Origin: Bdellovibrio bacteriovorus
GTDB lineage: Bacteria; Bdellovibrionota; Bdellovibrionia; Bdellovibrionales; Bdellovibrionaceae
Direction: 5' to 3'
Length of the DNA: 64,000 nucleotides
Assembly: GCF_001592745.1 (NCBI RefSeq)
Contig: NZ_LUKD01000001.1
Span: forward strand, 875,384 to 939,383
Shown: piece by piece, positions 8,930 to 33,829 of the stretch
Numbering within the stretch: the stretch's first letter is position 1
Layout: each line of letters opens with the position of its first letter
Translations under genes and position numbers: made by a program
The notes under the pieces: model-generated
Seen by the model: only the letters and a program-made list of their open reading frames with translations
What the model was told of the DNA's origin: nothing
Databases searched by the model: none

Positions 8930-10303
8930 ATGAAAACTTTCACTTACCCAACACACAAATGGGTCTTAACGGCGACACTGCTCGCTGTGCTAGGTTTAAA
9001 TGTATCTTTCAACACTCATACTGCGGGAGTGGCGTCTGCTGACTTCGCCTCTACAGAAGGTGAAGGCATCACGCCATCAAAAATCTACACCGCCGACGGT
9101 GTGGTCCCAGTAAAATACATTGATAACGGTGAAGACAAAGTCCTCGCGTTAGTTCCAAAGAAAATGACAGAAGGTAAAGCCTGCGACTCTTGCGGCTACG
9201 AATCCTATCCATTAAGTGTAAAAAACAAAGAAGACATCGACAGCTTGAATGTCGCATTGATGAAAGCCATCGGCGCCCGCTTGACGACTCAGGAAAAACC
9301 GAAGGCGGAGGCGACGCAGGAAGTGGAAGCGTCGGGCGATGCCAAGATCAATCCATTCGCATCTCTGGAAAAATGTGACGACAAGAAAAGCAACTCTGAC
9401 GTTCTTTCTTGCCGTACTACTAAATATATCCGCATTCTTAAATCAAACGCGAAATCGATCAATAAAGAAGACGCTTATGATTACTACAAAGAAAATATCG
9501 AATCTTTGATCTTGAGCGAAATCGCTGAATCTCGTCGCATCGTAAACGGCCAAAGAAGAGCATCCGTAATGCCAGGCCAATGGAGCTTCTTCAGCGAATC
9601 TGATTCCGCGATGAAAGATCCTGCGGCAATGCGTGATGAAGCACTTAAACTTGTACGCGAATTGATCAGCGGCGTTCCAGGCAAATTCGAAGATGTAAGA
9701 AGAAGATTGATTTCTGCCGAGTCAGAGATGATCCGCGCCGAAGCTCTTGAACTACAACAAACATATGTTCAAGCTAGAGACACTAAAGATCCATATCTTG
9801 GAAACTATTTGTTCAACGAAGGTAACTACCGTAGAGCAGACCTTGAATCATTGCTGAATAATGTCCTAAGCCAAACACAAATGGGTCTTGAAGGTTTGAA
9901 ATCTTCTGAGACAAGTGCGACTTTGAAGAACCAGTATATGACTGAAATCAACTCGTACATCCAAAAAATCTACAACGGTATGAATACTGATGTTTACAAC
10001 TTCATGGGAGCTGGAATCGGCGGAGGCACTACTGTACTTCCAGGTGTAAGCTTAGATTCTCGCCTACAAAACCCAGGGCGCATGGGAACAACGACGACAA
10101 TAGTTCCAGGTGTTTCAACAAGAACAGGAGCAAACCTAACAGTTTCCCCTGGAATCGTAGTTCAACCACAAGTTACGACTGTCCCTGGAACTACTCTACC
10201 GAACTTCCTGCCGCAAACTAACAACGGCGTAAGCTTCGGCACAGTATCGCCAATCTCTCCGCAATCACTGCAACAAAGACTCGACATCCGCGGCAGATTC
10301 TAA
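8930..10303 (+). CDS. Large exported protein of unknown function
   Basis: A 457-residue protein starting ATG 8930 after the very strong site TAGGAGGACTT. The N-terminus (HKWVLTATLLAVLGLNVSF) is a signal peptide or anchor. It contains a CDSCGY pair near residue 85, a helical middle rich in charged residues, and a low-complexity C-terminus with repeated VVPGVST/TVLPGVSL/TVVPGT-type motifs (residues about 365-440). The proline-glycine tail suggests an extended wall- or matrix-spanning region. No family is recognised. Strong translation signals suggest high expression, possibly CsrA-controlled. Confidence 0.75.
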   Translation: MKTFTYPTHKWVLTATLLAVLGLNVSFNTHTAGVASADFASTEGEGITPSKIYTADGVVPVKYIDNGEDKVLALVPKKMTEGKACDSCGYESYPLSVKNKEDIDSLNVALMKAIGARLTTQEKPKAEATQEVEASGDAKINPFASLEKCDDKKSNSDVLSCRTTKYIRILKSNAKSINKEDAYDYYKENIESLILSEIAESRRIVNGQRRASVMPGQWSFFSESDSAMKDPAAMRDEALKLVRELISGVPGKFEDVRRRLISAESEMIRAEALELQQTYVQARDTKDPYLGNYLFNEGNYRRADLESLLNNVLSQTQMGLEGLKSSETSATLKNQYMTEINSYIQKIYNGMNTDVYNFMGAGIGGGTTVLPGVSLDSRLQNPGRMGTTTTIVPGVSTRTGANLTVSPGIVVQPQVTTVPGTTLPNFLPQTNNGVSFGTVSPISPQSLQQRLDIRGRF

Positions 10304-10337
10304 GAATACAGCAAAAGAAAAAACTAACAGTTCCTCC

Positions 10338-10360
10338 AACGGGCTCACGACGGGCCCGTT
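10338..10360 (+). terminator. Hairpin downstream of the exported protein gene
   Basis: AACGGGC...GCCCGTT, a 7-bp stem with a 9-base loop 35 bases after the stop codon, followed by TCCTATTTT. The T-tract is poor, so it may be a weak terminator or a 3' stabiliser. Confidence 0.5.
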
Positions 10361-10392
10361 TCCTATTTTAACTAACGACGTGACGCAAACGC

Positions 10393-10413
10393 TTACTTCC
10401 ACCGTGGAAGTAA
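10393..10413. repeat. 21-base near-perfect palindrome
   Basis: TTACTTCCAC-c-GTGGAAGTAA: two exact 10-base arms around one base. The 3' side runs into AAATTT. It is too tight for an ideal RNA hairpin and could be a protein-binding dyad or an old terminator. It lies in a 522-base gene-free stretch. Confidence 0.5.
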
Positions 10414-10545
10414 AATTTCATTCGAAGAGTCACCCCGACGATTTCAAAAATCAAATCAACGTAAAAACCGGCGAAGCCCAGAAAAAACACCAGCTCCCAT
10501 TTCGGGATTTTTTTTTATTGTCTAGAGATGGAGTCGCCTCAGCAA

Positions 10546-10691
10546 GATTTGCAAGGGAAGTGGTTTGATGCTTCTCCGAAGGAAGGCCTTCGCCGGCGCA
10601 CGATGCGCGAACCGCCTGAAAGGCGGCGGCGACGAACCACGATGGTGTGCCGACCGCAGCGAGAAGCTTCAAACCACTTCCCTTGCAAATC
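10546..10691. repeat. 146-base structured element with 31-bp complementary arms and four inner stem-loops
   Basis: The arms 10546-10576 and 10661-10691 are complementary over 31 bases with a single mismatch. The 84 bases between hold four further hairpins in a row: CGAAGG-aagg-CCTTCG, GCGCA-cga-TGCGC, CCGCC-tgaaa-GGCGG and ACCA-cga-TGGT. The whole could fold as a long stem topped by a multi-branched head, on either strand. It sits between a T-tract of the upstream unit and the porin terminator, outside any gene. Its architecture (long private arms plus GC-rich core) is like the two elements at 38636 and 38912, though only the short CGCTGCGG motif is clearly shared. Confidence 0.7.
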
Positions 10692-10720
10692 CCCCGCTCG
10701 AAGCCAATTCCAAGCCCCAG

Positions 10721-10753
10721 AAAAAAAATCCCGAGGGACTTTCGTCCCTCGGG
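10721..10753 (-). terminator. Terminator of the H1/GroES-porin operon
   Basis: CCCGAGGGAC-TTTC-GTCCCTCGGG is a perfect 10-bp stem at 10730-10753. On the minus strand it is followed by GATTTTTTTT. It lies 73 bases past the porin stop codon. Confidence 0.9.
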
Positions 10754-10825
10754 CCCTGCTCACCACCAAACAAGATGTAATCATTTAGTCATCAAGCTGT
10801 CGTACAAGTTGCAATCAAGTTGTTA

Positions 10826-12241
10826 TCAAAAGCTGATGGCGGCTTTAGATGCAAATCCAAATGTAAAACTATTCTCTAAACCGTCGTTGCCATTTTTAAA
10901 GGCGTCACCCGGGAAGAGAAGACCGACTTGATTCACCCACTGAATTCTTTCAGATGGTCTGTAAATCACTTCGATATCCCATTCTAGGCCCAGATCTTTT
11001 GAAGAATCAACAGAGTTTTTTACGACATTAGAAATTTGTGCCCACACGAGTGTGTTGCGAACATCCACTTTTTCATTCCATGCGTAGTTCACTGAAGGTG
11101 CAACGTAGATGGTGTTGCTCACAAGTTCATCATCCGCAGAGTTTCCAACATTCGCAGAATTTCCCGCCGTTGCATCCGCTTGAGAAACATCTGTGCGGTA
11201 CGCATTCGTGTTCAAGAAATCTTTTCTGCCTAAACGGTGATTGAAAAGAAGCATTGCCGGCCCGTAGTTGCGGTTGAAAGCGTAACCGCTGAACTCTGTT
11301 GATGACGGGTCATCTCCAGTCGCCATACCTAACATCAATTTGTAATCCCATTTGGATTCATTCTTCTGGCTGTAAACTTCAGCTGCGATACCGAAACCAT
11401 TCACGCTGACGTCTTCTGTGCCTTTTGTCACTCCAGACTCACCACTTTGGAAACCAGCTTCTAATTTGAACCCGAAAGCATCAAAGCCACGACCCAAAAC
11501 GAAGTTCGTTCTTTGGATGTTCATATCTGAGTTCATGCTGTCGCCGCCCATTGCAGCTACTTGTCCGTCCGTGTAAGCCAAAACTTCTTTTACGCCTTTA
11601 ACGTTTTCTTGATAAACGCCAAGCAAAGATTTGTTCTCTTCACTTTCATATTGAAGTTGGAAACCCAATGTAGAGATCGTTCCACCCTGACCGTAACCGC
11701 TGGATTGTTTGCGGCTTAATTGCGGCATGAAGAACCAGTCACCTACTACGATTTTGTAAGCAATCATATCGCGAGTGTCGTACCAGTGATCAAAAGGACC
11801 TTTACCCGCGTTGTAAGTCATACCCAAACCGAATTCGAAGGGAGCACGACCGACGATCAAAGCGCCGTATTCTTGGTTCACATTCAAGTAAAGTTGGCTG
11901 ACTTTCAAATCAACAGAACCTTCGTTCGTCGAAGTCGCAGTGCCTTGTGTGTTTTGATTCAATCCCCAGATTTCACCTACTTGCGAGTTCGGATATTGAG
12001 AACTGTTCAAAACATCGAAGCGAGAAATGATGTTTACGCCATCAGCCGCGATGATTTTTGGGCTCAAGTAAAGATAGTTCAAACCATAGGCTTTTCTTTC
12101 AGAAGGTGAACCCAAAGATGGTTTATCCACTTCAGTCCATTCTGCGCGGTAGCCCCCGCTCCAATCCAAACTCATGGCGTTGGCCGTTGTGGACAAAAGC
12201 GCCACCGAAAGACCCAATGCTTTCAAAAGATTCTTATTCAT
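10826..12241 (-). CDS. Outer-membrane beta-barrel porin-like protein
   Basis: A 471-residue protein with signal peptide (LLKALGLSVALLSTTANA). The chain is made of amphipathic beta strands (LYLNVNQEYGALIVGRAPFEFGLGMTYN, LGFQLQYESE, FGFKLEAGFQSG, YKLMLGMATG) and ends SFTFGFASKAAISF, with the C-terminal Phe that outer-membrane insertion machinery recognises. The second of two adjacent ATGs (12241) is preferred, since AAAGGA lies six bases ahead of it. It follows the H1/GroES fusion gene by 11 bases and is probably co-transcribed. The substrate cannot be told. Confidence 0.85.
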   Translation of the reverse strand: MNKNLLKALGLSVALLSTTANAMSLDWSGGYRAEWTEVDKPSLGSPSERKAYGLNYLYLSPKIIAADGVNIISRFDVLNSSQYPNSQVGEIWGLNQNTQGTATSTNEGSVDLKVSQLYLNVNQEYGALIVGRAPFEFGLGMTYNAGKGPFDHWYDTRDMIAYKIVVGDWFFMPQLSRKQSSGYGQGGTISTLGFQLQYESEENKSLLGVYQENVKGVKEVLAYTDGQVAAMGGDSMNSDMNIQRTNFVLGRGFDAFGFKLEAGFQSGESGVTKGTEDVSVNGFGIAAEVYSQKNESKWDYKLMLGMATGDDPSSTEFSGYAFNRNYGPAMLLFNHRLGRKDFLNTNAYRTDVSQADATAGNSANVGNSADDELVSNTIYVAPSVNYAWNEKVDVRNTLVWAQISNVVKNSVDSSKDLGLEWDIEVIYRPSERIQWVNQVGLLFPGDAFKNGNDGLENSFTFGFASKAAISF

Positions 12242-12252
12242 TTTCATTCCTT

Positions 12253-12870
12253 TTATTTTGCGACCACGCCAAGGACATCCCCCTCGCGAAGGATGATGAG
12301 GTCTTCGTTTTGAATTTTGATTTTATTGCCAGCGTACTCAGAGAAGATCACTTTATCACCGACAACAACGTCCATCGGTTTCAAATGACCTTTTTTGCTC
12401 ATGTGACCGCGACCGACAGCAACAACCTGACCTTGTAGATTGCCAGAAGTATCTGCCACTGTATCCGGAATGTACAAACCACCTGGAGTCATTTTCTCTG
12501 CTCCAGAAAGTTGCACGATCAAGCGATCATCCAATGGAGTTACGAAATTGCTGAGATCCAAATTTTTCGTTGGGGCTTTTTCTTTGACCAAGTGAGAAGC
12601 TTTCGGCGCAGAAGCGACTTTCGCAGGAGCTTTAGCCGTTTTCTTAACAGCAGAAGGTTTCGCTGCTTTTTTGGGAGCGGCCTTCTTAGGGGCTGCCTTT
12701 TTCACTACGGCCTTTTTTGCCGGAGCTTTTTTCGCCGCCGTTTTTTTTGCGGGGGCCTTCTTAGCCGGAGCAGATTTTTTAGTTACTTTTTTAGGAGTTT
12801 TTTTAGAAGCGGTCTTTTTAACGACCTTTTTAACATTGGCTTTTTTAGCAGAAGCTTTCTTCTTAGCCAC
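12253..12870 (-). CDS. Histone H1-like Lys/Ala-rich tail fused to a GroES (Cpn10) domain
   Basis: A 205-residue protein in two clear parts. Residues 1-100 are almost only Lys, Ala and Pro in (A/P)AKKA-type repeats, as in bacterial histone H1-like/AlgP tails that bind nucleic acid. Residues 109-205 are a complete Cpn10 fold: FVTPLDDRLIVQ, the mobile-loop region EKMTPGGLYIPDTV with a hydrophobic tripeptide for GroEL docking, GQVVAVGRG, VGDKVIFSEYAG and EDLIILREGDVLGVV. The GTG at 12870 is chosen because AAAGGA precedes it by six bases; a TTG at 12876 overlaps that spacing. No groEL is adjacent; the next gene in the operon is a porin. The reading frame is continuous, so the fusion looks real. 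Confidence 0.9.
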   Translation of the reverse strand: MAKKKASAKKANVKKVVKKTASKKTPKKVTKKSAPAKKAPAKKTAAKKAPAKKAVVKKAAPKKAAPKKAAKPSAVKKTAKAPAKVASAPKASHLVKEKAPTKNLDLSNFVTPLDDRLIVQLSGAEKMTPGGLYIPDTVADTSGNLQGQVVAVGRGHMSKKGHLKPMDVVVGDKVIFSEYAGNKIKIQNEDLIILREGDVLGVVAK

Positions 12871-12957
12871 AACCAATCCTTTCGTTCAAACAAGCTTAGG
12901 AAAATTTAAATTTCGCTCATTTGCTTCAGAGAGAGTTTTGCACTACTCTTAACATAT

Positions 12958-15270
12958 ATGTTGCGACCACGATTAAAGACCATTTTAATTGCTTTTACAA
13001 TCCTTGTGACGCTTGTAATCATCTCTGGCCTTGGCGTTGGCGTCTATGCCTACGTCACACTGGAAAAAGAACTGACGGAAAAGTTGGAGTCGAAAAAGTT
13101 CATCGTTCCGACAGAGTTCTATGCAGCTCCACCAACTTTTTACGCTCACAGCTTGATACAGATTTCCGAAGTTGAAAAACAGCTTTTGCGCCAGAATTAT
13201 CGCCGTCGCGACTATGATCAACGCATTCTTCCCGGAGATTATTTCATAGCCAATCGAGAGCAGTGTGCGGCCCGTTTGCAAGTGGGTTTGAATGAAAATC
13301 AAGAGGCCTGCATCGGTTGGGTGACATTGGATACGGCTACCGCTGACGTGGACAGCTCTTTACAAATTCTGGTCGTACAAAAAGATCGTTTGATCTCGCA
13401 AATTTTTAAAGGGGCTCCGTTTGTCGAGATGACCGAAGCCCACGCCGAAGCTCCATTACTTGCTCAATACATTGGCAATGAACCTTTGATGCAAAAGACA
13501 GTGACATTAGGAGAAGTTCCTCCGATGTGTCTGAATGCGATCATGGCCATTGAAGATGCTCAATTTTTGGAGCATGGCGGAGTCAGCATTAAAGGTATCT
13601 TCCGTGCGCTGGTAAAAAATATTGCGGCGGGACGAAGAGCTCAAGGTGGTAGCACCATCACTCAACAACTTGTAAAGAACTACTTTTTAACAAGTGAAAG
13701 AACTCTGAAAAGAAAATTTCAAGAGTTCGTGATGTCCATCCTGTTAGAATCGCGTTTTTCAAAAGATCAGATCCTTGAAACCTATCTGAACGTCATTTAC
13801 ATGGGACAAAATGGAGCGTTTCAAGTTCGCGGGTACGGTTCAGCAGCCCGTTACTATTTCGGAAAAGAAATCGCGGATCTGAATTTAAGCGAATGCTCAC
13901 TGATGGCCGCCATCGTGAACAGTCCCGGCTTGTACAACCCTTTCCGAAAACCTGAAAACGCAGAACGCCGTCGCCATTTGGTTCTGGAAAAAATGCAAGG
14001 TCTTCAGTTCATCTCCAAAGATGAAGCCGACGCCGCAGACCGCTTGCCACTTCCGGGCGAACCCAGAACTCAAGCCTCTGAAACCGCACCTTACTATCTA
14101 GATGCCGTTCGCAAGCAGCTTCTTTCACAAAATATCAATCCCGAGGGTTTAAAGATTTACACCGCTTTGGATTTGGAAGCGCAAGAAGTGGCGCAAGTGT
14201 CTTTGCGCGGCCACTTAGACAATCTTGAGAAAAATAACAAATACATCAAAGGTCTTCGCGAAAAAGGCAACAGCCTTGAAGGCAGTGTCCTAGTAGCAAA
14301 CAATGTGACCGGCCTTGTGAGTGTCGTCGTAGGCGGCCGTAACTATCGCATGACTCAATTCAATCGCGCTATTGATGGGCACCGCCAAATTGGTTCGATC
14401 ATGAAGCCCTTTGTATACCTGACGGCGCTTTTAAATCAAACCTCTGAAGGACAACCGTATACTCCAATCACGTTACTGAACGATGAAAAATTCAATTACA
14501 AATACGAAGGCCAATCTTGGTCTCCGGTAAATTACGGAAAACAGTATTTCGGACAAGTTCCGATGTTTTATGCGTTAAAGAACTCTTTGAATGCTGCGAC
14601 AGCGGCTCTAGGTATCGCCGTCGGATTAGGAAACGTGATTGATGTCACCCACACCATGGGCGTCACATCAGAACTGAAATCCTTCCCGGCGATGACTTTG
14701 GGAGCTTTCGAAATGTATCCGAAAGAAGTTCTGCAAAGTTACATGACCCTTGCGAACATGGGCCAAAAACAAAAAATCTCGTTTGTTCGCCGCGCTCTGA
14801 ATTCTGATGGCGTAGAAATCTTCGCTCATCAAATAAATCCCGAGCCCACAGTCGATCCTGCAGCCGTCGCAAGTCTTGTCGGGATGATGAAGCAAACTGT
14901 TCTGTCAGGAACTGCTCGTTCGATCACGCTCAGTGGATTTCAGAATCCCGCTGCTGGAAAAACAGGAACGACAAGCGATAACAAAGATGCTTGGTTTGCC
15001 GGGTTTACTCCCTATCTGACGACGGTGGTTTGGGTTGGTTACGACAACAACCTTCCGCACCGATTAACGGGTTCTAGTGGAGCAGTACCAGTGTGGACGC
15101 AATTCATGAAAAAAATCGGGACGCGCTTCCCGGCCGATGATTTTCCTTGGCCGGAAAACACGAAGAAAGTGCTCTTAGATCAAAGCACTTTGGAATCTTT
15201 AAATGCGTTTAAAGAAAATGATCCGACTGAAGTTGAATTGATTTTCGACGCCGAAAAAGCACCGAACTGA
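12958..15270 (+). CDS. mrcB: Class A penicillin-binding protein, PBP1b-like
   Basis: A 770-residue bifunctional peptidoglycan synthase. It has one N-terminal membrane anchor (residues 8-32), a region compatible with a UB2H domain (about 50-130), then the glycosyltransferase domain with EDAQFLEHGG (catalytic Glu199) and GGSTITQQLVKN. The transpeptidase domain has SIMK (Ser480, Lys483), SLN (543-545) and KTGTT (Lys668). All catalytic motifs are intact. The ATG at 12958 has no strong ribosome site. It is divergent from the H1/GroES gene with an 87-base promoter gap, and ends one base from a convergent gene. Confidence 0.95.
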   Translation: MLRPRLKTILIAFTILVTLVIISGLGVGVYAYVTLEKELTEKLESKKFIVPTEFYAAPPTFYAHSLIQISEVEKQLLRQNYRRRDYDQRILPGDYFIANREQCAARLQVGLNENQEACIGWVTLDTATADVDSSLQILVVQKDRLISQIFKGAPFVEMTEAHAEAPLLAQYIGNEPLMQKTVTLGEVPPMCLNAIMAIEDAQFLEHGGVSIKGIFRALVKNIAAGRRAQGGSTITQQLVKNYFLTSERTLKRKFQEFVMSILLESRFSKDQILETYLNVIYMGQNGAFQVRGYGSAARYYFGKEIADLNLSECSLMAAIVNSPGLYNPFRKPENAERRRHLVLEKMQGLQFISKDEADAADRLPLPGEPRTQASETAPYYLDAVRKQLLSQNINPEGLKIYTALDLEAQEVAQVSLRGHLDNLEKNNKYIKGLREKGNSLEGSVLVANNVTGLVSVVVGGRNYRMTQFNRAIDGHRQIGSIMKPFVYLTALLNQTSEGQPYTPITLLNDEKFNYKYEGQSWSPVNYGKQYFGQVPMFYALKNSLNAATAALGIAVGLGNVIDVTHTMGVTSELKSFPAMTLGAFEMYPKEVLQSYMTLANMGQKQKISFVRRALNSDGVEIFAHQINPEPTVDPAAVASLVGMMKQTVLSGTARSITLSGFQNPAAGKTGTTSDNKDAWFAGFTPYLTTVVWVGYDNNLPHRLTGSSGAVPVWTQFMKKIGTRFPADDFPWPENTKKVLLDQSTLESLNAFKENDPTEVELIFDAEKAPN

Positions 15271-18736: not shown

Positions 18737-18770
18737 GAAAAGACCCGCCGGATAAGCGGGTCTTTTTTTA
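18737..18770. terminator. Bidirectional rho-independent terminator
   Basis: AAAAGACCCGC-cggataa-GCGGGTCTTTTTTT, a perfect stem flanked by A and T runs. It serves the exported protein gene on the plus strand and overlaps the end of the convergent kinase gene. Confidence 0.92.
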
Positions 18771-20972
18771 TGTCTTCGCCCTAGCAATTTGAATCGAGTC
18801 AAAGAAAGAGCGCCTTACCAGCAAAGCGCCTTTTTTGTTCGCAAGCTCCTGAATATCCGCACTTTCGACTAATGACGTACACAAGACAGCCTTGTACAAA
18901 TGCTTTTGCGGAAGCGAGTCTAAAAGATCAAAGCCCGTTTCTTCTTCTCCAGGAAAAAGCAAGTCCGCTATCAGAGTCAGATTTTTCTCGGGGTTTGCTA
19001 TAAGAAATTCTTTTGCTTTAGAGAGTGTCGAGAAAGAAGAAACCTTGATTCCTACGTCCTCAAAACGTTTCCGTAGACTTGCAGAGTCTTCTGCAGTCAC
19101 GATGACAGCGCTTTCACTGACACCGAAGCGAACCGCTTCAAGAGCCATTGGTACCACAATTTTAAAACACGCTCCTTGCGCTGAAGGAATGTAAGACACG
19201 ACTCCCCCAGTGAGTTCTAAGTCCTTTTTGACCTGATAAAGTCCCAAACCTGTTCCACCTTTTTTATTAAAGGTCGATCCCTCTTTAAAAAGCGATTTGA
19301 CGTGCTCCGTAGGAATTCCTGGGCCGTTGTCTTTGAGGTAAATCACGATAATCCCCGCCTGCTTTTCTGCACTAATTTCAATCAAGGGATCAATGCCTTT
19401 GGCGTAACAAGCTTCCAACGAGTTATTCAGTAGATTTGAAAAGGATCGCTGAATAGCATAAAGCGGCCAATACGCGATTACGTCACTAGGAACTTGATTC
19501 AAGAACCGCGCTTTCTCATGCACTTTTTCATAGGAAGAAATCAGTTCCGAAAGCGCCGCCTTCAGCGAAGTATCCCCTTGCACTAAATCAGAACCCTTCG
19601 TCTTATATCTTTGAAAAAGATCTTCAGAAATATTTCGAATTCTTTGTGTGGCATTTTCGATAAGATCCCGCAGGTCCCCCGACACTTGCCCTTTCAGAAG
19701 TGAACTCGCCACCTGCAACGCCATCAACGGACTGCGAATATCGTGCGACACCTGCCCCACCATGCGCAACGTCGCTTCGGTGGTCGCGGCTTTGACCATG
19801 ATTCGAGCTTGAAGCTTTTCCCGCTCACTTTTTTTACTTTCTTCAAAAAGCTTTCTGTCTGCAGAGCGAAGTGAAACAATGAATAGAATTGGAATTCCAA
19901 GATACTGAATTATTAATCCACCGACCAAAATCCGACTGAAATCCAAGTTCAGCGAGTAGAATCTAAAAACGGCTAGCGAAAGCAAAAATGCTAGAGTAGG
20001 AACAATAAAAGACCACGCCACAAACAAGGCGGGACGATGATAAAACTTTCTCAACAAAAATAGCTCTAAGGAAATAACAAAAAAGATCCAAAAAAAGTTG
20101 GCACTTGCTTTCGCTTCTTTGATCCAATCGGTATTTTTAATATTATTAACTATAGTAATTAAGTATTTTCCCTCAGAAAAATATCCCTCATTTGTCGCGT
20201 CTTCCGAAAAGGAGAATCTTGCAAACTGGTGCGTCGAAATTGCACCTGAATGATGATCTTCTGAGCTAATAATGACGATTTTATCTCGAACTTGAACCAA
20301 ATTTTCAGTATCTAAAGAAAAGGTTCCTAATTTGTCAGCGGAATAGAATTTTATATAAACCTGCTTCGTCCCTAGGACATCGATGACACCTTGAGCTTTA
20401 TCAAGATCGATGTTTGGAAGCTCAAATACCTTCAAGAAATCTTTTAGATCGCTATCAAGACCAATTCCGTCCATACTGAAAACGAGTTTTCGAGTTCTCT
20501 GGTCAGACACATTTAAGTGAAATTTATGAATTAGGTGTCGAGAGAATTCATCGAAGTGCCTTGAAGTTGCGAAAACTCTTCCTTCACCGGCGCCCCATCT
20601 TGAATATAAATACAGATTCGATAACTTTTCTAAGCGCTTTTCAAACCGATCAAGTTCCTCTTCGGACGCTAGGATCTCGCCAGGAGAAATTGCCAAAATA
20701 ATCTTTTTGGCTTTTTGCATTTCAATTTTTTCAACGAGCTGCTGTAGTTTGTTAATGGGAATAGTAGGATTTTTTTCTTTCAAAGAACTGATGGAGATTT
20801 CAACAACATCACTGTCATGAATCGGAAATCGTGAAAGAAAACCTCTTAGATCTAAAAATAATGCATCTAAGTAAGACATCCTAAAACTTAGGGACGCAAA
20901 CGCGAACAATCCGCCAAAGATGAACGGGAAAATCCACGAGATTTTTCTGAAAGTTTTGGTGGTTATAGACAC
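18768..20972 (-). CDS. CHASE2-type sensor histidine kinase with C-terminal receiver-like domain
   Basis: 734 residues. An N-terminal membrane helix (about 12-30) is followed by a large extracytoplasmic region with CHASE2 character (MSYLDALFLDLRG near its start, VRDKIVIISSEDH near its end). Two or three more helices (about 292-370) come next, then HisKA with VSHDIRSPL (His410) and an ATPase domain (NLLNNSLEAC, DNGPGIP, GGTGLGLYQVKK). Residues about 622-734 resemble a receiver (VIVTAEDS, IADLLFPGEEETGFDLL) but are divergent. The start is GTG 20972 with a weak site. It is divergent from the radical SAM gene and convergent with the exported protein gene. Confidence 0.85.
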   Translation of the reverse strand: MSITTKTFRKISWIFPFIFGGLFAFASLSFRMSYLDALFLDLRGFLSRFPIHDSDVVEISISSLKEKNPTIPINKLQQLVEKIEMQKAKKIILAISPGEILASEEELDRFEKRLEKLSNLYLYSRWGAGEGRVFATSRHFDEFSRHLIHKFHLNVSDQRTRKLVFSMDGIGLDSDLKDFLKVFELPNIDLDKAQGVIDVLGTKQVYIKFYSADKLGTFSLDTENLVQVRDKIVIISSEDHHSGAISTHQFARFSFSEDATNEGYFSEGKYLITIVNNIKNTDWIKEAKASANFFWIFFVISLELFLLRKFYHRPALFVAWSFIVPTLAFLLSLAVFRFYSLNLDFSRILVGGLIIQYLGIPILFIVSLRSADRKLFEESKKSEREKLQARIMVKAATTEATLRMVGQVSHDIRSPLMALQVASSLLKGQVSGDLRDLIENATQRIRNISEDLFQRYKTKGSDLVQGDTSLKAALSELISSYEKVHEKARFLNQVPSDVIAYWPLYAIQRSFSNLLNNSLEACYAKGIDPLIEISAEKQAGIIVIYLKDNGPGIPTEHVKSLFKEGSTFNKKGGTGLGLYQVKKDLELTGGVVSYIPSAQGACFKIVVPMALEAVRFGVSESAVIVTAEDSASLRKRFEDVGIKVSSFSTLSKAKEFLIANPEKNLTLIADLLFPGEEETGFDLLDSLPQKHLYKAVLCTSLVESADIQELANKKGALLVRRSFFDSIQIARAKT

Positions 20973-21179
20973 CTTGTCTTATCGGAAAATTAAATACGAA
21001 GTTGATTATTCACCACCTGTTGAATCATTATCACTTCGTGTATTAGTTACCTTTTGATCCTAGGTCGCCTGACAAGGAGCCAAAAATACACCGCCACATC
21101 CATTGTAAGTTATTGATTATACTAGATATTATAATGAAAGCCGGATGTCTCATTTTGGAACGCTTATTGCAGCTCCTTA
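20973..21179. promoter_or_regulatory. Divergent promoter region of the radical SAM/kinase locus
   Basis: A 207-base spacer. CGAAGTTGAT (20997) and ATCACTTCG (21030) form an imperfect inverted repeat, with a nested TGATT...AATCA pair inside. Closer to the radical SAM gene is a very AT-rich stretch (about 21108-21134, including TATACT and TATAAT) suitable for a promoter. No gene with a ribosome site was found in it. Confidence 0.35.
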
Positions 21180-22466
21180 ATGCGCATGGAACAAAGACGT
21201 TACAAAGACATTGTGGCATTTAAATGGGGACAAAGCGCTCCCCTAGCGTTCCATGCCCGAAATCTTGAAGTCGCAGAGATTTCTGAAGAGACTTGGTCGA
21301 CAATGCAAGCCACTGACGATGTCAATGAAGCGTTGGCCGAACTTTCAGCTTGGGAACAAGATAGCAACCCCGACGTTAAATCTGGAAAGCTCGAACCAGG
21401 TATTCGCAGTCTTACGATTAACGTTACTCAAATTTGCAATTTGAAATGCACATACTGCGCGGCCGGTGGCGACGGAACTTACGGTGCTGCGCAAACAAAG
21501 ATCAATGTCGAAAAAACTTTGCCACAGTTGAAATTCTTTTTGGAAAGACTCCCCGACAATAGCAATTTCAAAATTACTTTTCTTGGAGGCGAACCCCTCC
21601 TTTATCCTGAAGGGATCCAAGAAATTGGCAACTATGTGCGACTTATGGCTGCCGGTCGGAATATCCATCCACGTTTTTCCATCGTAACGAATGGAACATT
21701 GATTAATGAAAAAACCTTGAATGTACTTAAAAGTATTCAAGCCAATATCACTATCAGCGTCGATGGACCTGCAAGCATTAACGACAAGTCTCGCCCAACG
21801 AAAACAGGCGCTAGCAGCACGGAAATGGTCGTTGACGGACTCAACCAAATTTCTGCTGTTCGCGACTCTTTAGGGCTCATCACGCTGCACGGAGTTTTTA
21901 ACGCTGATAATCTGGATTTAATAAAAGCCTATGAGTTCTACCGTCAATTCGACGTGGATAAATACGAGTTCACGTATTCAGTGTCTGACAACGATGATGT
22001 AAGCAATAGAGAATTCGTTTCGCAAATGAACCTGATCGCAAAAACAGCGTATGCAAAAGGCGGCGAGAGAGAACTTCGTAAAATCGGCGTCTTTGACCAA
22101 TACTTCCATGCACTTGATAGTCAGCAACAAACAGAGAATCATTGCGGCGCTGGAAAATCCTTCCTGATGGTAGATGCCAAGAACAATCTTTATACTTGCC
22201 CGTGGGAAGTGGGAAATAAAAATGAACAGGTTGGCCACGGTGACAACCTTGATTTAGAGAGTCTGAATGAATACCAGGCTCCCTTGATCGAAAAGAACAA
22301 CTGTCAAAGCTGCTGGGCACGTTATCTATGCGGTGGCGGCTGTATGTTCATCCATAAGCAAAGTACTGGAAGCAAACATAAGAAAGATGGCCAATTTTGC
22401 TTTCGCACACGCAGCTTGATTAGCACCGCCTTACTATATTATAAAATCAGCAGGGAATCCTGCTAA
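21180..22466 (+). CDS. Radical SAM/SPASM peptide maturase, candidate RiPP-modifying enzyme
   Basis: A 428-residue radical SAM protein. CNLKCTYC (Cys86, 90, 93) binds the SAM-cleaving cluster; LGGEPLLYP, VTNGT and ISVDG are the usual downstream motifs. The C-terminal SPASM domain has the auxiliary-cluster cysteines: Cys322, Cys340 (NLYTCPWE), CQSCWARYLCGGGC (Cys375, 378, 384, 388) and Cys407; the very last residue is also Cys (428). The first 75 residues lack the cluster and resemble the peptide-binding front part of many SPASM maturases. Its stop codon is 9 bases before the 38-residue peptide gene, which is the probable substrate. Known relatives make thioether or carbon-carbon crosslinks in peptides or activate sulfatases; no sulfatase is here. 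The start may also be ATG 21186. Confidence 0.9.
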   Translation: MRMEQRRYKDIVAFKWGQSAPLAFHARNLEVAEISEETWSTMQATDDVNEALAELSAWEQDSNPDVKSGKLEPGIRSLTINVTQICNLKCTYCAAGGDGTYGAAQTKINVEKTLPQLKFFLERLPDNSNFKITFLGGEPLLYPEGIQEIGNYVRLMAAGRNIHPRFSIVTNGTLINEKTLNVLKSIQANITISVDGPASINDKSRPTKTGASSTEMVVDGLNQISAVRDSLGLITLHGVFNADNLDLIKAYEFYRQFDVDKYEFTYSVSDNDDVSNREFVSQMNLIAKTAYAKGGERELRKIGVFDQYFHALDSQQQTENHCGAGKSFLMVDAKNNLYTCPWEVGNKNEQVGHGDNLDLESLNEYQAPLIEKNNCQSCWARYLCGGGCMFIHKQSTGSKHKKDGQFCFRTRSLISTALLYYKISRESC

Positions 22467-22475
22467 GAGGAATAT

Positions 22476-22592
22476 ATGACAAAGAAAACACATATCAAAA
22501 AAGTGAAGCCTCTGAAGCCCGCACTACCAAATCCAGGAATTAAAGGCGGGCCAGGTACAGGTAATGGCGAAGGCTGCATCCCCGTTCGCTAA
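22476..22592 (+). CDS. Candidate 38-residue RiPP precursor peptide
   Basis: A short frame from ATG 22476 to TAA 22592, with ribosome site AGAGGA at good spacing, nine bases after the maturase stop codon. The peptide has a basic leader-like half (MTKKTHIKKVKPLKPALPNP) and a glycine-rich half ending GGPGTGNGEGCIPVR with one Cys (residue 34) four residues from the C-terminus. Size, leader/core split and placement right after a SPASM maturase fit a RiPP substrate. There is no secretion signal or double-glycine cleavage context that I recognise with certainty, although a GG occurs at 24-25. It matches no peptide family I know. Confidence 0.75.
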   Translation: MTKKTHIKKVKPLKPALPNPGIKGGPGTGNGEGCIPVR

Positions 22593-22618
22593 CTTTTAAA
22601 AAATAAAATATAGGACTT

Positions 22619-24499
22619 ATGACTCTTCCTCCCTCCCCTGAAGAGAAATCAGTTCCCTCTAAAAAGGGCAACTACCAAGCACTTGCGCTGCGAATCTTAT
22701 TCGCAGTAGGGATTTCTATTCTTTTGGCGCAAACAAATTTGGAGTATATCGAGTCCTATCTATACGACCTGCGAAGTCGCACAAAATTAATCAACTCTAC
22801 GTCCGGAAATATTGAGCTTATCTACATAACGCCTAAGACAATTCAAAGCTTTCAAGGTTTCCCCTCAGCTTCCGAACAAAACAAGCTTTTAGAAAAGATT
22901 AAGAGCCAGAATCCAAAGGCCGTAGTTTATGACTTTGACCTTAATGAAACACCAGGCACCATCGAGGCAAAAAATAAATGGGAAGCTAGTATCGTAGCGG
23001 ATGAGAACATCTATGTCGCTGGACGTTCCACTCCTTTAAAAGGGGAAGAGAATCAATTGGTTTTAAGTCAGCCCTTTGAGCAAATCTCTTTATTCCCTTC
23101 TCCAAAAACGACGGACTTAGTTAATTTTGCTAAAGACGGCGTAACTCGAAGAATGATTTTAACCTATCAAGATCGTCCTCTATTATCGACGCACCTAGCG
23201 GCATTGGTTAACCCTAGTGTCGCAAACGTAGAAAGCGTTCGCGGCGTTTTTGATTTTTACGGGACCGACCAGGCTTACATTAATTTTCATCCAGCTAAGT
23301 CTTTTCCTTCAACTTCATTCGAAGATCTCATCGACGGTGTCGTCAGCACAGACAGATTCAAAGATAAAATTGTAATTATTGGTACCGATTTGGGATTGAA
23401 TGAAGCCGAGTATATTCAAAGCCCTTATAATAGAGATGTTATGGCAATGACACGTATCGAACTGCAGGCAAACGCGATCGATACCCTCATTACGAACTCA
23501 GCACCTGTCAGGGCTAGCAAATACGTTAGCTGGTTACTCATTCTCCTCGCTTCGTTATTAACGACTCATGTTGTCCTTACTATGAAACCCACTCAAGGTT
23601 TGATGGTTCTTGCGGCCACGTTGGTCGGCTTTATTGGTGTCAGCTCTGCCGCTTTCTGGATCGGAGGATTCTGGCTTCCGATGGCGGCGCCACTTTTAAC
23701 CATCTTCCTCTGCTACTACTTCTTCATCCCGTACCGCTTGATCGTGGAAAATCGTCGCAGTTGGGAATACTATCAAAAGAATAAACTTCTAAGTCAGGTC
23801 GAAGAGCTTAAGACGAATTTCATTTCTATGATGTCTCACGACTTAAAAACGCCGATTGCGCGCATTCAAGGGATGACGGATATGATTCTTGCCGATCCGG
23901 TGACCTTGAGTCCTCAGCAGCGCGAGGCTGTGGATACGATTCGTCATTCTTCTGATGACCTTTTGAAGTTCATCAATGCGATTTTGAATTATGGTAAAAT
24001 TGAAAGCCAAGGGGTTCAGCTGAACCTGCAAAGCAAGGACATCAACAATCTTCTTCAAGAAGTCATCCGTAAGCACGAGTTCCTTGCAAAAGTGAAACGT
24101 ATCCAGATCGTCTCTGAACTGGAGCCTATGTTCCCCGTTCCTGTGGACGCTGATTTAATGAAGCAGGTGTTCTCAAACCTTGTAGAAAACGCCATTAAAT
24201 ACAGCCCTGAAGACACGAAGATTATGATCTCTAGCGAAGAGTCCTCCACGAAGGTGGTCGTTCAAGTCGCCGATCAGGGGCCGGGTATTCCTGCTGACGA
24301 ATTGCCTAATATTTTCATGAAGTTTTTTAGATCCAAGAACGCCAAAAGCTCGCCAATTAAGGGGTCAGGATTGGGGCTTTATTTGGCTAAATACTTTACC
24401 GAACTTCACCATGGACGCCTTTTTGTAGAATCTTCCCATGGTAATGGCTCCACATTTACGGTAGAACTACCAATCGAGCAAGGGGGTACACATGCTTAA
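22619..24499 (+). CDS. CHASE2-domain sensor histidine kinase
   Basis: 626 residues. A membrane helix (about 22-38) precedes an extracytoplasmic CHASE2-type domain (LYDLRSRTK, KDGVTRRMILTYQDRPLLSTHLAAL, FKDKIVIIGTDLG, ELQANAIDTLI). Three further helices (about 300-370) lead to HisKA with MMSHDLKTPIARIQG (His407) and an ATPase domain (NLVENAIKYSPED, DQGPGIP, GSGLGLYLAK). It lies 26 bases after the peptide gene and overlaps the NtrC-type regulator by eight bases, so the pair is one two-component system, most likely transcribed with the maturase and peptide. The ligand sensed outside the membrane is unknown. Confidence 0.92.
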   Translation: MTLPPSPEEKSVPSKKGNYQALALRILFAVGISILLAQTNLEYIESYLYDLRSRTKLINSTSGNIELIYITPKTIQSFQGFPSASEQNKLLEKIKSQNPKAVVYDFDLNETPGTIEAKNKWEASIVADENIYVAGRSTPLKGEENQLVLSQPFEQISLFPSPKTTDLVNFAKDGVTRRMILTYQDRPLLSTHLAALVNPSVANVESVRGVFDFYGTDQAYINFHPAKSFPSTSFEDLIDGVVSTDRFKDKIVIIGTDLGLNEAEYIQSPYNRDVMAMTRIELQANAIDTLITNSAPVRASKYVSWLLILLASLLTTHVVLTMKPTQGLMVLAATLVGFIGVSSAAFWIGGFWLPMAAPLLTIFLCYYFFIPYRLIVENRRSWEYYQKNKLLSQVEELKTNFISMMSHDLKTPIARIQGMTDMILADPVTLSPQQREAVDTIRHSSDDLLKFINAILNYGKIESQGVQLNLQSKDINNLLQEVIRKHEFLAKVKRIQIVSELEPMFPVPVDADLMKQVFSNLVENAIKYSPEDTKIMISSEESSTKVVVQVADQGPGIPADELPNIFMKFFRSKNAKSSPIKGSGLGLYLAKYFTELHHGRLFVESSHGNGSTFTVELPIEQGGTHA

Positions 24500-26018
24500 G
24501 GTTTTGGTTGTAGACGACGATCAGGGCTTAAGACTTTCCGTTAAATCCGCACTCGCAGTCACTCAAAGATTTGAAGTCGACGAGGCTTTCGATGGCGTTA
24601 ACGCTATGGAAAAGATCAAAGGCGGCGACAAGAAATACGATCTAGTGATTCTTGATGTGGACATGCCCCGCATGAACGGGCTCGAAGCTCTTCGTCAAAT
24701 CAAAGAATTCGACCCAGGTATCATTGCTATCATCATGACCGCGCACGCGACGTTGAACGACGCGATTCAAGCCGTTAAAGACGGCGCTTACAATTACCTT
24801 CCAAAACCTGTTGGCAGCGATCAGTTACTTCAATTGATCGATAAAGCCGTAAATGCCCATAACTTGATTTCAAATATCGCAGCTTCGGCACCCGTCATGC
24901 ACGAAGCCGGTCGTAAAATCATCGGTCACACTTCGCAAATGCAAAAGGTGTTTAACATCATTCACCGTCTTGCTAAGGTCGATACCCCGGTTTTGATTCG
25001 TGGTGCTTCCGGAACGGGTAAAGAACTTGTTGCTAAAGCGATTCACTACAACTCCGCTCGCAAAGATGAAAAATTCGTTGCTATCAACTGCTCTGCAATC
25101 CCAGAGAATCTTTTTGAATCCGAGTTATTCGGTCACGAAAAGGGTTCTTTCACAGGTGCGGATCAACGCAAGATCGGGAAATTCCAATTCGCTGAAGGCG
25201 GGACGCTATTCCTAGATGAAGTTGGCGACATGCCACAATTGATGCAAGTAAAGATCTTGCGCGTACTTCAAGAAAAGCTTTTCACTCCCGTTGGCTCGAA
25301 TCGCGAATTCCCGACGAATGTTAGAATTATCGCGGCAACAAACAGACCTCTTGAAGACATGATCAAAGCGGGCACTTTCCGCGAAGACTTGTTCTATCGT
25401 TTGAACGTTGTACCTATCTTCTTGCCGGCACTAGCTGAGCGCAAAGACGATATGGATCACATGGTGAATATCTTTATTAAGAAATTCAACCAAGCGCACG
25501 GCAAACGCATCAACGGAATTGCTCCAGATGCGATGGCGGTCCTTAAAAAACACACGTGGCCGGGCAACATTCGTGAGCTTGAAAACGTGATCGAGCACGC
25601 TTTTGTTCTAGAGATGTCTAACATCATCACGATTGCATCTTTGCCTGAATCCTTGTTGATTGCTACAGGTACAAATTTGATCGATGTTCCACCAGTGATG
25701 GAAACCGCTCAAAACGTAGCTTCGGCGGGTTTGGCATCGGCTTCTCAAGCCCATGCGACTTTGGGTGATGACGATGATGCGGACGTGGGTACGGACTCTG
25801 AAGAGTTGGATGGCGAAGAAATCGTTCCTTACAACGGTTCCGAAAACCTAGATTTCAATGCGCAGAAAGAAGCTTTCGAAAAAGAGTTTATTATCAAAGC
25901 TCTTAAAACTTTCCGTGGTCGTATCAATCAAACAGCGTTGCACGCCAATATTCCGAAGAAGACACTTCTTAGAAAAATTGAGAAGTACGGAATCGTTGCG
26001 AAAGACTACGCCAACTAA
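24492..26018 (+). CDS. NtrC-family sigma-54-dependent response regulator
   Basis: 508 residues. The receiver domain has the acidic pair DDD near residue 8 and the phosphoacceptor Asp55 (VILDVDMPRMNG). The AAA+ domain has Walker A GASGTGKE (about 172-179), the sigma-54 contact loop as GSFTGA rather than GAFTGA (about 218-223), GGTLFLDEVGDM and the arginine-finger region. An unusually acidic linker (about residues 415-455, rich in Asp and Glu) precedes a Fis-type helix-turn-helix (GRINQTALHANIPKKTLLRKIEKYGI). It overlaps the kinase gene by eight bases. Targets are unknown; the divergent spacer 20973-21179 is one place to look. Confidence 0.93.
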   Translation: MLKVLVVDDDQGLRLSVKSALAVTQRFEVDEAFDGVNAMEKIKGGDKKYDLVILDVDMPRMNGLEALRQIKEFDPGIIAIIMTAHATLNDAIQAVKDGAYNYLPKPVGSDQLLQLIDKAVNAHNLISNIAASAPVMHEAGRKIIGHTSQMQKVFNIIHRLAKVDTPVLIRGASGTGKELVAKAIHYNSARKDEKFVAINCSAIPENLFESELFGHEKGSFTGADQRKIGKFQFAEGGTLFLDEVGDMPQLMQVKILRVLQEKLFTPVGSNREFPTNVRIIAATNRPLEDMIKAGTFREDLFYRLNVVPIFLPALAERKDDMDHMVNIFIKKFNQAHGKRINGIAPDAMAVLKKHTWPGNIRELENVIEHAFVLEMSNIITIASLPESLLIATGTNLIDVPPVMETAQNVASAGLASASQAHATLGDDDDADVGTDSEELDGEEIVPYNGSENLDFNAQKEAFEKEFIIKALKTFRGRINQTALHANIPKKTLLRKIEKYGIVAKDYAN

Positions 26019-31572: not shown

Positions 31573-32454
31573 GTGAAGAGTTTTGTATTTGCGACATGTT
31601 TATTCTGTGCTTCGACGGCTTTTTCGAAAATCAAAGTAGTCACGACACTTCCCGATATTGCAGAAATTGTTCAGGCTATCGGCGGAAACGAAGTGGAAGT
31701 TCAAAGCTTGCTGAAAGGAAGTGAAGATCCTCACTATGCCGAAGCCCGCCCCGATTATATTTTAAAAGTAAATCGAGCCGACGTGCTTTGCTCTGTTGGT
31801 TTAGAACTTGAAGTCGGTTGGCTTCCAAAGGTTCTAGAAAAAGCCGGAAATGCAAATGTCTCCCCTGGTGGTAAGGGTTCTTGCATCCTAGGAAAGTCGG
31901 TAAAGCCTGTCGACGTTCCCGTGGGCGTTATCAACAGATCCTTAGGAGATGTTCATCCTCAAGGAAATCCGCATTTTGCATTGTCGCCAGAAAAGCTCGT
32001 TGAAGGCGCGAACGAAGTTGTGCGCGTTTTATCAGAAGTAAACCCAGACAAAGCCTCTGAGTTTTCGAAGAATTATGATGCATTCAAAAAGAAAATGACG
32101 GACCTGCAGACGACACTTTCTAAGAGCGTAAAAAAAGTGAAGGTCATGGAGTATCACAAAGAATTTACCTACTTCTTTAATGCCTATGGGCTTGAATCCG
32201 TCGGATCGTTAGAGGAAAAGCCAGGCATGCCACCCTCGGCGGCGCGCTTAGCTCAGGTGGCGAAGCTCGCAAAGGACAACAAAGTGGCTGTGCTCTTCGC
32301 GACACCCTCAGCACCTCATAAAGCTTTAGAAAGATTCACAGAGCTTTCCGGCATTCCAGTTGTCACTGTGCCTTCCTATGTGCAAACTTCTGGTAATTCC
32401 GATGCAAAGACGATTGAAGGCTTGCAAAAATTATTGGTAAAATCCATTCCATGA
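31573..32454 (+). CDS. znuA: Zinc ABC transporter substrate-binding protein
   Basis: 293 residues, cluster A-I metal-binding protein with a signal peptide (KSFVFATCLFCASTAFS). The metal site of the family is visible: His54 in EDPHYAEARP, His134 in GNPHFALSP, His195 in MEYHKEFTYFF and a likely acidic ligand at Asp277. It lacks the long His-rich loop of enterobacterial ZnuA, perhaps because the His-rich protein at 29304 does that job. GTG start with AGGAGG. Overlaps znuC by four bases. Confidence 0.92.
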   Translation: MKSFVFATCLFCASTAFSKIKVVTTLPDIAEIVQAIGGNEVEVQSLLKGSEDPHYAEARPDYILKVNRADVLCSVGLELEVGWLPKVLEKAGNANVSPGGKGSCILGKSVKPVDVPVGVINRSLGDVHPQGNPHFALSPEKLVEGANEVVRVLSEVNPDKASEFSKNYDAFKKKMTDLQTTLSKSVKKVKVMEYHKEFTYFFNAYGLESVGSLEEKPGMPPSAARLAQVAKLAKDNKVAVLFATPSAPHKALERFTELSGIPVVTVPSYVQTSGNSDAKTIEGLQKLLVKSIP

Positions 32455-33020
32455 GTTCTATTCTTGAAGTTCGAAATCTAAAAGCCCGCAGCCGTGAAGG
32501 ACTGGATCTTTCACCTGCGGTCGACTTTGATCTTCAAGAAGGTGAAGTGCTGTTTCTGCGTGGAGAAAATGGTTCAGGAAAGAGCACCTTATTGAAAATT
32601 CTTTTGGGTCTTCATAAATACTATGAAGGCTCTTTTCAGTTGCGCATTTCGAAGGTCGAAATGCAGTATGTTCCTCAGTTAGGAAACTTGAATTTCCATC
32701 TTCCCTTGACCCTACAGGATATGGTCCCTCCCACGGCACGAGACCTTCCCTTGCTGCGGGGGCTTGATCTTAATAAGAAATGGAACACCGCCAGTGGCGG
32801 TGAAAGACAAAAAGTTCTTTTAGCGGCTGTTCTGGCGAAACGCCCCAAATTATTGGTTTTGGATGAGCCTTTTAATCACGTGGATAAGGACTCAGTTCAA
32901 GTGCTGGAAGACGCGTTAGCACAGTTTCTTAAAATGAATCCACAAAGTTCTTTGATTTTGGTGTCTCATCGCGCGCTTGTACAAAACTGGGCTTCAGTTA
33001 AATTTTTGGAGATTCGATGA
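32451..33020 (+). CDS. znuC: Zinc ABC transporter ATP-binding protein
   Basis: 189 residues, short for the family (usually about 230-260) because the C-terminal extension is missing. Walker A GENGSGKST (38-46), the signature as ASGGERQKVLL (about 114-124), Walker B LLVLDEPF and the switch SHR are present. It overlaps znuA and znuB by four bases each (ATGA), so the three are translationally coupled. Metal specificity is inferred from the operon and operator. Confidence 0.92.
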   Translation: MSSILEVRNLKARSREGLDLSPAVDFDLQEGEVLFLRGENGSGKSTLLKILLGLHKYYEGSFQLRISKVEMQYVPQLGNLNFHLPLTLQDMVPPTARDLPLLRGLDLNKKWNTASGGERQKVLLAAVLAKRPKLLVLDEPFNHVDKDSVQVLEDALAQFLKMNPQSSLILVSHRALVQNWASVKFLEIR

Positions 33021-33829
33021 GTTCCTTCTTGGACTTGCTAAAAATTTATCAGTGGGCTTTGCCGGCCAGTGTGGTTATGGCTGCGGTGCTTGCGTTGATA
33101 GGTGGCCAGTGGACCGCTCGGGCTAAAAGTGCGCAAATTTTTGTGTTAGGCCAAGGCTCTTCTTTAGGAATTGTATTGGGATTTGTTTTAAACCTTATCT
33201 TGGGAACCGACTTTCACGGTTTGAATCTGGTTTTAGGTTTGAGTTTAGGTTGGTTGACACTCTTACTTTCTGATTTTTGGATTGAATCCCGCTCGGACAG
33301 AAACCACGTTTATTTGACTCTTTTTGTATTCTTTCTTTCGCTTACGTATTTGATCACCTCCATCACGCCTTCTTTAGAGTCTCATATGGCAGCGGCGTAT
33401 TTTGGTGATATTGCGGTGATGAGCAATTTGGGTGCGCAGATGAGTCTGGCAGCAGGCTTGGCATTTGGGGCATTCTTATTGTGGAGCTGGAAAGAGCTTT
33501 CGATGATTTCTTTTCAGCTATTAAATCAAAGCTCCATTCATCGCAGCGGCAAAAATCTGGTTTTCGACGTAGGAACCTTGCTATTGACGACAATGGCAAT
33601 TCAAAGCATGGGCTATCTTTACACCATGGGATCACTTTTCATTGCGACAAGCTTTGCTTCATCCCGCAGTCGAAATTTGAATTCTTATACGGCGAAAATA
33701 CTGTTAATCGCTTCCTTAGGAAGTCTACTGGGATTTAGCATTTCATTATTTTCCACAGAGCTTCCCACCGTCCCCTGCATCCTTATTGGACAGATGTTGG
33801 TGGGTTTCTTGAGTTATACGAAGAAGTAG
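33017..33829 (+). CDS. znuB: Zinc ABC transporter permease
   Basis: 270 residues with about eight hydrophobic segments, of the ABC-3 permease family: GQWTARAKSAQIFVLGQGSSLGIVLG near the front, and AAAYFGDIAVMSNLGAQMSLAAG and DVGTLLLTTMAIQSMGYLYTMGSLFIAT in the usual order. Last gene of the operon. Its 3' end overlaps the convergent cNMP-domain gene by 16 bases, and no terminator lies between them. Confidence 0.9.
   Translation: MSSFLDLLKIYQWALPASVVMAAVLALIGGQWTARAKSAQIFVLGQGSSLGIVLGFVLNLILGTDFHGLNLVLGLSLGWLTLLLSDFWIESRSDRNHVYLTLFVFFLSLTYLITSITPSLESHMAAAYFGDIAVMSNLGAQMSLAAGLAFGAFLLWSWKELSMISFQLLNQSSIHRSGKNLVFDVGTLLLTTMAIQSMGYLYTMGSLFIATSFASSRSRNLNSYTAKILLIASLGSLLGFSISLFSTELPTVPCILIGQMLVGFLSYTKK

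Follow-up and report, generated by a model that had tools for sequence, protein, structure and literature searches.

In Bdellovibrio bacteriovorus, a four-gene operon driven by sigma54 probably encodes a peptide pheromone that is modified by a radical SAM enzyme, sensed by a CHASE2 domain and coupled to sigma54-dependent feedback, here in a Gram-negative predator. The operon lies in a window of 64,000 nucleotides, which is the whole stretch of DNA that was analysed, and the original prediction described two of its genes as a candidate new RiPP, a SPASM maturase followed by its 38-residue substrate. Judged by sequence comparison, a CHASE2 kinase, an NtrC regulator and a sigma54 promoter also belong to the functional unit, and the “new RiPP” therefore becomes a probable peptide signalling system. 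The features concerned are as follows.

18768 to 20972, minus strand: divergent second sensor kinase, CHASE2-like, with a C-terminal extension (Pfam HisKA/HATPase_c; CHASE2 E 3e-4, below cut-off)
19830 to 23650, no strand: exchange (specificity) block, comprising the upstream-kinase sensor half, the maturase, the peptide and the CHASE2-kinase sensor half (drop in DNA identity)
21156 to 21171, plus strand: predicted sigma54 (-24/-12) promoter of the operon, TGGAACGCTTATTGCA, the best sigma54-like site in the 64-kb window
21186 to 22466 (listed frame from 21180), plus strand: radical SAM/SPASM peptide maturase (Pfam Radical_SAM E 1e-15, CX3CX2C, auxiliary Cys)
22467 to 22470, plus strand: ribosome binding site GAGG of the peptide gene (from the sequence)
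22476 to 22592, plus strand: 38-aa precursor peptide with leader KKTHIKKVKPLKP, variable spacer and C-terminal GEGCIPVR
22619 to 24499, plus strand: CHASE2 sensor histidine kinase, the proposed receptor (Pfam CHASE2 1e-26, HisKA, HATPase_c)
24492 to 26018, plus strand: NtrC-family sigma54 response regulator (Pfam receiver, AAA+, Fis-type HTH)

The peptide frame translates into MTKKTHIKKVKPLKPALPNPGIKGGPGTGNGEGCIPVR (38 aa), and its ATG follows the enzyme stop codon after nine bases, GAGGAATAT, with the coordinates and the GAGG site as originally described. A short peptide with an HIKK(V/I)KP leader and one near-terminal Cys stands behind every readable SPASM orthologue (~75), so that the frame is conserved beside the maturase, a point on which the original prediction was to be checked. 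The shared design of these peptides, present after practically all orthologues, consists of a basic leader, HIKK(V/I)KPxK, a spacer without fixed sequence, and a single Cys 4-12 residues before the C terminus. The Cys is invariant (62 of 62 aligned peptides) and a Pro occupies position Cys+2 in 60 of these 62, giving the usual ending C-x-P, while Cys+4 is mostly Gly, Arg or Lys, with Arg or Lys in 24 of 63 peptides, a count that includes one spurious frame. In the 62-peptide alignment, G-x-G-C-x-P is the only conserved end segment and no fixed crosslink acceptor residue is conserved. The original notion of a core-like end, GGPGTGNGEGC, set apart from the leader therefore needs trimming: the leader and G-x-G-C-x-P are conserved, whereas GGPGTGN belongs to the variable spacer. 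Purifying selection on the frame, set beforehand as a test, is apparent in near pairs of equal length, where 13 synonymous codons compare with four amino-acid-changing ones (9:3 in L003/L005, 4:0 in L120/L121 and 0:1 in L114/L115). Conservation behind the orthologues rules out a chance ORF, and on this comparative evidence the peptide is real. Searches of NCBIfam, Pfam and PHROGs gave no match to it, in line with the earlier statement that it fits no known RiPP precursor class, and on these searches none of the libraries contains this precursor family. The gene is single-copy, and no further peptide copies were found in the 3.76-Mb genome. Among related loci, L125 (8761-8992, minus strand) carries a tandem pair of precursor genes (TTGLSCIPIG and TTGLACIPSGLPNSSSN) after a single maturase gene, and the L181 peptide has two Cys (GCIGKNHCPEID). 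Peptides of family f9 (L179, L181-L185) end in CPE(R/I) or CEI in place of C-x-P, CEI being the ending in L179, and thus only the Cys is universal.

The enzyme has the makings of a SPASM peptide maturase. Its originally proposed frame and end (21180-22466) stand, but the start is probably the second ATG at 21186 (MEQRRYKD), since the orthologues align from residue 3 and this start is the conserved one. The CX3CX2C site is formed by C86, C90 and C93, and together with seven auxiliary Cys (C322, C340, C375, C378, C384, C388 and C407) it makes ten Cys that are invariant in 55 orthologues, with the auxiliary spacing CX17C, CX2CX5CX3C and C. Of the “seven or eight” auxiliary Cys counted earlier, seven hold and the eighth, C428, is not conserved among these orthologues. 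The enzyme thereby shows CX3CX2C and the 7-Cys motif CX9-15(G)X4C..CX2CX5CX3C..C co-linearly with CteB, and its seven auxiliary Cys align with the seven of CteB. The Pfam SPASM model matches neither the enzyme nor anything else in the genome, which reflects a sensitivity limit. In NCBIfam, the best profile is PapB (NF047865) with 176 bits, below its curated cut-off of 340; the SCIFF maturase profile TIGR03974 reaches 141 bits against a cut-off of 425, and the anSME profile TIGR03942 reaches 83 bits against 349. The nearest profiles are those of PapB, nif11-type and SCIFF maturases, all far under cut-off, and sulfatase activators score about half as much. CteB is the best PDB relative by sequence and by fold (Z ~31-32.5, compared with ~27 for anSME and ChlB), and the fold alignment with CteB takes in its N-terminal domain (residues 8-425). 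In all three comparisons, of profile, of sequence and of fold, the enzyme thus stands nearest the PapB/CteB-type thioether maturases and apart from the sulfatase-activating enzymes, as the original prediction presupposed. In addition, because the peptide lies in the reading frame of the enzyme, translation through the stop codon gives a natural fusion. Its AlphaFold model has a mean pLDDT of 88 and a disordered core, with a strand at the leader HIKKV at moderate confidence (pLDDT 75-79), as would be expected in a model of a leader docked on an RRE. The linkage in more than 70 genomes, the leader and invariant Cys, and the modelled leader strand support the earlier view that the peptide is the putative substrate of the SPASM enzyme.

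By analogy, a thioether in the Cys region is the most likely modification, and a fairly probable one, because CteB- and PapB-like enzymes make this link and are marked by the seven-Cys SPASM pattern. The ranthipeptide maturases PapB (freyrasin) and CteB (thermocellin/SCIFF) resemble the Bdellovibrio system in their radical SAM and 7-Cys SPASM domains and would also share an RRE, a leader strand and Cys-based chemistry with it, but the Bdellovibrio enzyme scores under every curated cut-off. Ranthipeptide precursors have about six Cys, whereas the Bdellovibrio precursor has one, and the latter lacks a conserved acceptor and an acidic residue at constant spacing as well as any Cys-X3-Asp or six-Cys-in-45 pattern; membership in the ranthipeptides or SCIFFs is excluded on precursor and score. 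CteB has an Aux I cluster with an open site, and the clusters of anSME are fully ligated (PMC6231123). One may argue that the enzyme acts like an anSME and makes formylglycine out of the Cys in the terminal C-x-P-x-R (CIPVR), yielding a peptide aldehyde, a variant that could go with any of the readings weighed below. The SPASM fold is shared, GEGCIPVR fits the sulfatase signature C-x-P-x-R, the Pro at Cys+2 and the Arg or Lys at Cys+4 agree with it at the frequencies given above, and among solved families anSME ranks second in sequence similarity. However, the maturase is nearer PapB and CteB in all three comparisons, has an added N-terminal domain and no sulfatase encoded beside it, and carries seven auxiliary Cys rather than the eight of anSME. 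Moreover, D277 of anSME, which directly follows the cluster ligand C276 (the third cluster Cys) and has a catalytic role, corresponds to a Pro in the Bdellovibrio family (Pro341 in the maturase), Cys+4 is often Gly, and in the f9 peptides CPE or CEI replaces C-x-P. Sulfatase-type maturation is thus disfavoured, despite the striking CIPVR match, by the enzyme profile, the cluster ligands and the f9 variants, and we regard formylglycine as improbable; the remaining probability falls to other Cys or backbone chemistry.

The gene that follows the peptide is the CHASE2 kinase in all 53 loci whose contig continues far enough. Its predicted topology is one transmembrane segment (TM1), a periplasmic CHASE2 domain of ~260 aa, three further TM segments, HisKA and HATPase. 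The NtrC gene adjoins the kinase in nearly all loci, the exceptions being L136, which is without an adjacent NtrC, and L159, in which NtrC has moved upstream. Receiver, sigma54 AAA+ domain and Fis-type HTH mark the regulator as a member of the NtrC-family two-component systems, and both a sigma54 promoter and rpoN are present in the genome. The 3.76-Mb genome has a single copy of the strict promoter pattern TGGMMCRNNNNTTGCA, and a sigma54 site scoring at least 12 is found in the 250 nt upstream of 55 of the 72 orthologous loci, as against 4.6% of random stretches. This NtrC presumably regulates the operon's own sigma54 promoter, and positive feedback is suggested because a sigma54 activator is encoded at the end of a sigma54 operon. 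The promoter lies 28-32 nt from the enzyme ATG in class-A loci and 47-63 nt in class-B loci, and the predicted class-A transcript, starting only 2-6 nt 5' of the enzyme ATG, would be nearly leaderless. No exporter or peptidase gene occurs within the conserved unit, in agreement with the earlier remark that none lies beside the pair.

The strongest indication that the peptide is a signal comes from the way in which the locus diverges. Compared with G007 (locus L132), which is almost the same organism, the window has ~93% DNA identity in the flanks and ~50% only within ~19.83-23.65 kb. Whereas NtrC, LspA and the metallo-beta-lactamase-fold protein (MBL) are 100% identical between the two, the maturases share 52% identity and the L132 peptide is of another class (GPRDCVPLST versus GEGCIPVR). 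The CHASE2 kinases are 38-53% identical in the sensor half and 100% in the kinase domain, and the upstream kinases 19-37% in the sensor half and 91-96% in the kinase half; each edge of the block falls within one of these two divergent kinase genes, where the membrane sensor passes into the cytoplasmic kinase. Among 18 genus members, a partial Mantel test relates the enzyme to the sensor given kinase domain and NtrC (r 0.94, p 0.0002), but not to the kinase domain given NtrC (r 0.12, p 0.18). The enzyme-sensor partial correlation vanishes when all families are included, probably owing to saturation. In the enzyme+sensor tree, the class-B loci (L126, L129, L130 and L132) form one clade (100/100), whereas the kinase+NtrC tree rejects such a clade (p-AU 0.0003; at least three changes) and groups L132 with the window (100/98). 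The sensor half of the upstream kinase follows the same classes where it is present. On the evidence of these alignments and trees, maturase, peptide and sensor domain co-diversify and are swapped as one block.

The system is widespread in the family. An enzyme orthologue is found in 60 of 66 Bdellovibrionaceae genomes, a weak match in G016 not being counted. Four of the six genomes without it are 54-72% complete, and in G016 the contig ends inside the kinase gene, so that a loss there was rejected in favour of an assembly gap. The sixth, G038 (99% complete), is a real absence in which the CHASE2 kinase and NtrC are kept while maturase and peptide are gone. In its locus (L165, ~8800-13700) neither is present between the two kinases, a natural loss. 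Searching the phylum adds 13 of 13 genomes of the sister family f7 and eight of f9, elsewhere only distant relatives, and the peptide with its following CHASE2 kinase is found in three families of the order. A spread beyond the order is contradicted by 60 distant relatives from many phyla (L051-L110) and two phylum relatives (L186, L187), which have no such kinase or NtrC adjacent and no convincing C-x-P peptide. Weak kinase matches lie 1.7-4.2 kb upstream in L078, L089, L101 and L108.

Starting from the linkage, the conserved Cys and leader, the promoter, the mosaic and the co-divergence seen in these sequences, we infer a biological role for the peptide system and the following course of chemical modification, cleavage, export, ligand binding and autoinduction. 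The SPASM enzyme would hold the HIKKVKP leader with a putative RRE-like domain at its N terminus and modify the C-terminal segment at the single Cys, most likely to a thioether. The C-terminal fragment would then be released and reach the periplasm or the medium by a route encoded outside the operon, where the periplasmic CHASE2 domain of the adjacent kinase, and that of the divergent kinase where present, would recognise it. The activated kinase would phosphorylate the NtrC-type regulator, which in turn would activate sigma54 promoters including the operon's own, closing a positive feedback loop. Delivery to the periplasmic sensor is the weakest link and is unexplained, since no exporter or leader peptidase is linked. 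Because maturase, peptide and sensor diversify jointly and are exchanged as a block, strains would fall into pherotypes. More tentatively, the modified single-Cys pheromone of these Bdellovibrionales pherotypes could be the natural CHASE2 ligand and control a sigma54 switch for same-type recognition, perhaps inside the prey cell. Gene counting from flgE (Bd3395) and RagB (Bd3393) tentatively places the kinase/NtrC pair near Bd3359-Bd3363 in HD100; if these tags do denote the two genes, the work of Lambert et al. would mean that the system is turned on within prey.

Instead of a signal, the modified peptide might be an output, i.e. an antimicrobial or prey-directed RiPP that CHASE2 and NtrC induce upon another cue. 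RiPP maturases often make antibiotics, and an effector would suit a sigma54-driven operon with an NtrC as well as the persistence of the kinase-NtrC pair without peptide in G038, from which it follows that the pair can act alone. Nevertheless, the conserved unit has no immunity, export or peptidase gene and is near-universal in the family, unlike most bacteriocins, which are patchy; and an output function alone leaves unexplained why enzyme and peptide diverge with the sensor and not with the kinase domain. We therefore consider an effector rather unlikely.

It is also unlikely that the peptide gives rise to a small cofactor or cell-internal ligand, like PQQ or mycofactocin, which would tune the sensitivity of the sensor without any cell-to-cell role. 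Cofactor precursors are highly conserved at the residues of the product, whereas here all but the Cys varies, and cofactor genes are not normally exchanged as allele blocks with a sensor domain, even though the strict one-copy presence, the short C-terminal segment around a single Cys and the lack of an exporter would fit such a role. There is only a slim chance that the membrane sensors are hypervariable for some other reason, such as phage or prey contact, with enzyme and peptide merely carried by linkage. Identity does drop in both flanking kinases precisely where their membrane and cytoplasmic parts meet, and hitch-hiking could contribute to the joint exchange since the enzyme and peptide genes sit between the sensor halves. 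Yet co-divergence is still seen although most genomes have no upstream kinase, and the strict retention of enzyme and peptide beside the CHASE2 kinase in more than 70 genomes calls for a function.

The preferred reading, a modified peptide pheromone with its own sensor, has a close functional counterpart in comQXPA of Bacillus, in which ComQ, ComX and the N-terminal part of ComP are polymorphic and the C-terminal part of ComP and ComA are conserved (PMC5385187, PMC4008528). In Bdellovibrio, the same four-gene order of modifying enzyme, small peptide, membrane histidine kinase and response regulator is found adjacent on one strand, with polymorphic enzyme, peptide and sensor, a conserved kinase domain and regulator, and exchanged alleles. 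The parts differ, however: ComQ is an isoprenyltransferase rather than a radical SAM/SPASM enzyme, ComX is modified on Trp whereas the Bdellovibrio peptide has a Cys and no Trp, the sensor is multi-TM there and a periplasmic CHASE2 domain here, the regulator is LuxR-type there and NtrC/sigma54 here, and the hosts here are Gram-negative predators. By this analogy the locus works like comQXPA without being a member, a functional likeness with no claim of enzyme homology. Most known systems that pair a peptide pheromone with a membrane kinase come from Gram-positive bacteria. In streptococci, the production of certain RiPPs is controlled by cytoplasmic Rgg together with an SHP peptide that carries no modification, whereas in Bdellovibrio the modified peptide itself would be the signal for the membrane kinase. 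Streptide and streptosactin are such Rgg/SHP-controlled radical-SAM RiPPs tied to quorum sensing (PMC8172795). A search of the literature outside subscription papers found no paper on a locus of the present kind. While a peptide pheromone with a kinase is known, its combination with a radical SAM enzyme, CHASE2, sigma54 and a Gram-negative predator is new. If the reading is true, a pheromone system with radical-SAM chemistry that nearly all members of a family of Gram-negative predators carry would be a novelty, and it would supply the CHASE2 domains, a sensor class without known ligands (PMC10581220), with a first candidate. Moreover, it would open the question of communication among predators to genetic study, as the pherotype swap between near-identical genomes makes strain-specific signalling testable, and it would add a RiPP precursor class that annotation pipelines miss because neither NCBIfam nor Pfam has a model for it.

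Around the conserved unit, the gene content changes from locus to locus. The divergent upstream kinase is accessory, being found only in L117, L129 and L132, with different ones in L138, L139, L149 and L153; in the window (18768-20972, minus strand) it looks like a hybrid kinase, with a receiver-like C-terminal extension. The flanking genes, which include those for the metallo-beta-lactamase-fold protein, PBP1b, LspA and a protein of 920-950 aa, are ordinary neighbours that come and go. Another ordinary neighbour, at 31573-33829 of the window, is a row of substrate-binding protein, ABC ATPase and membrane permease, which by eye resembles a ZnuABC-like metal importer.
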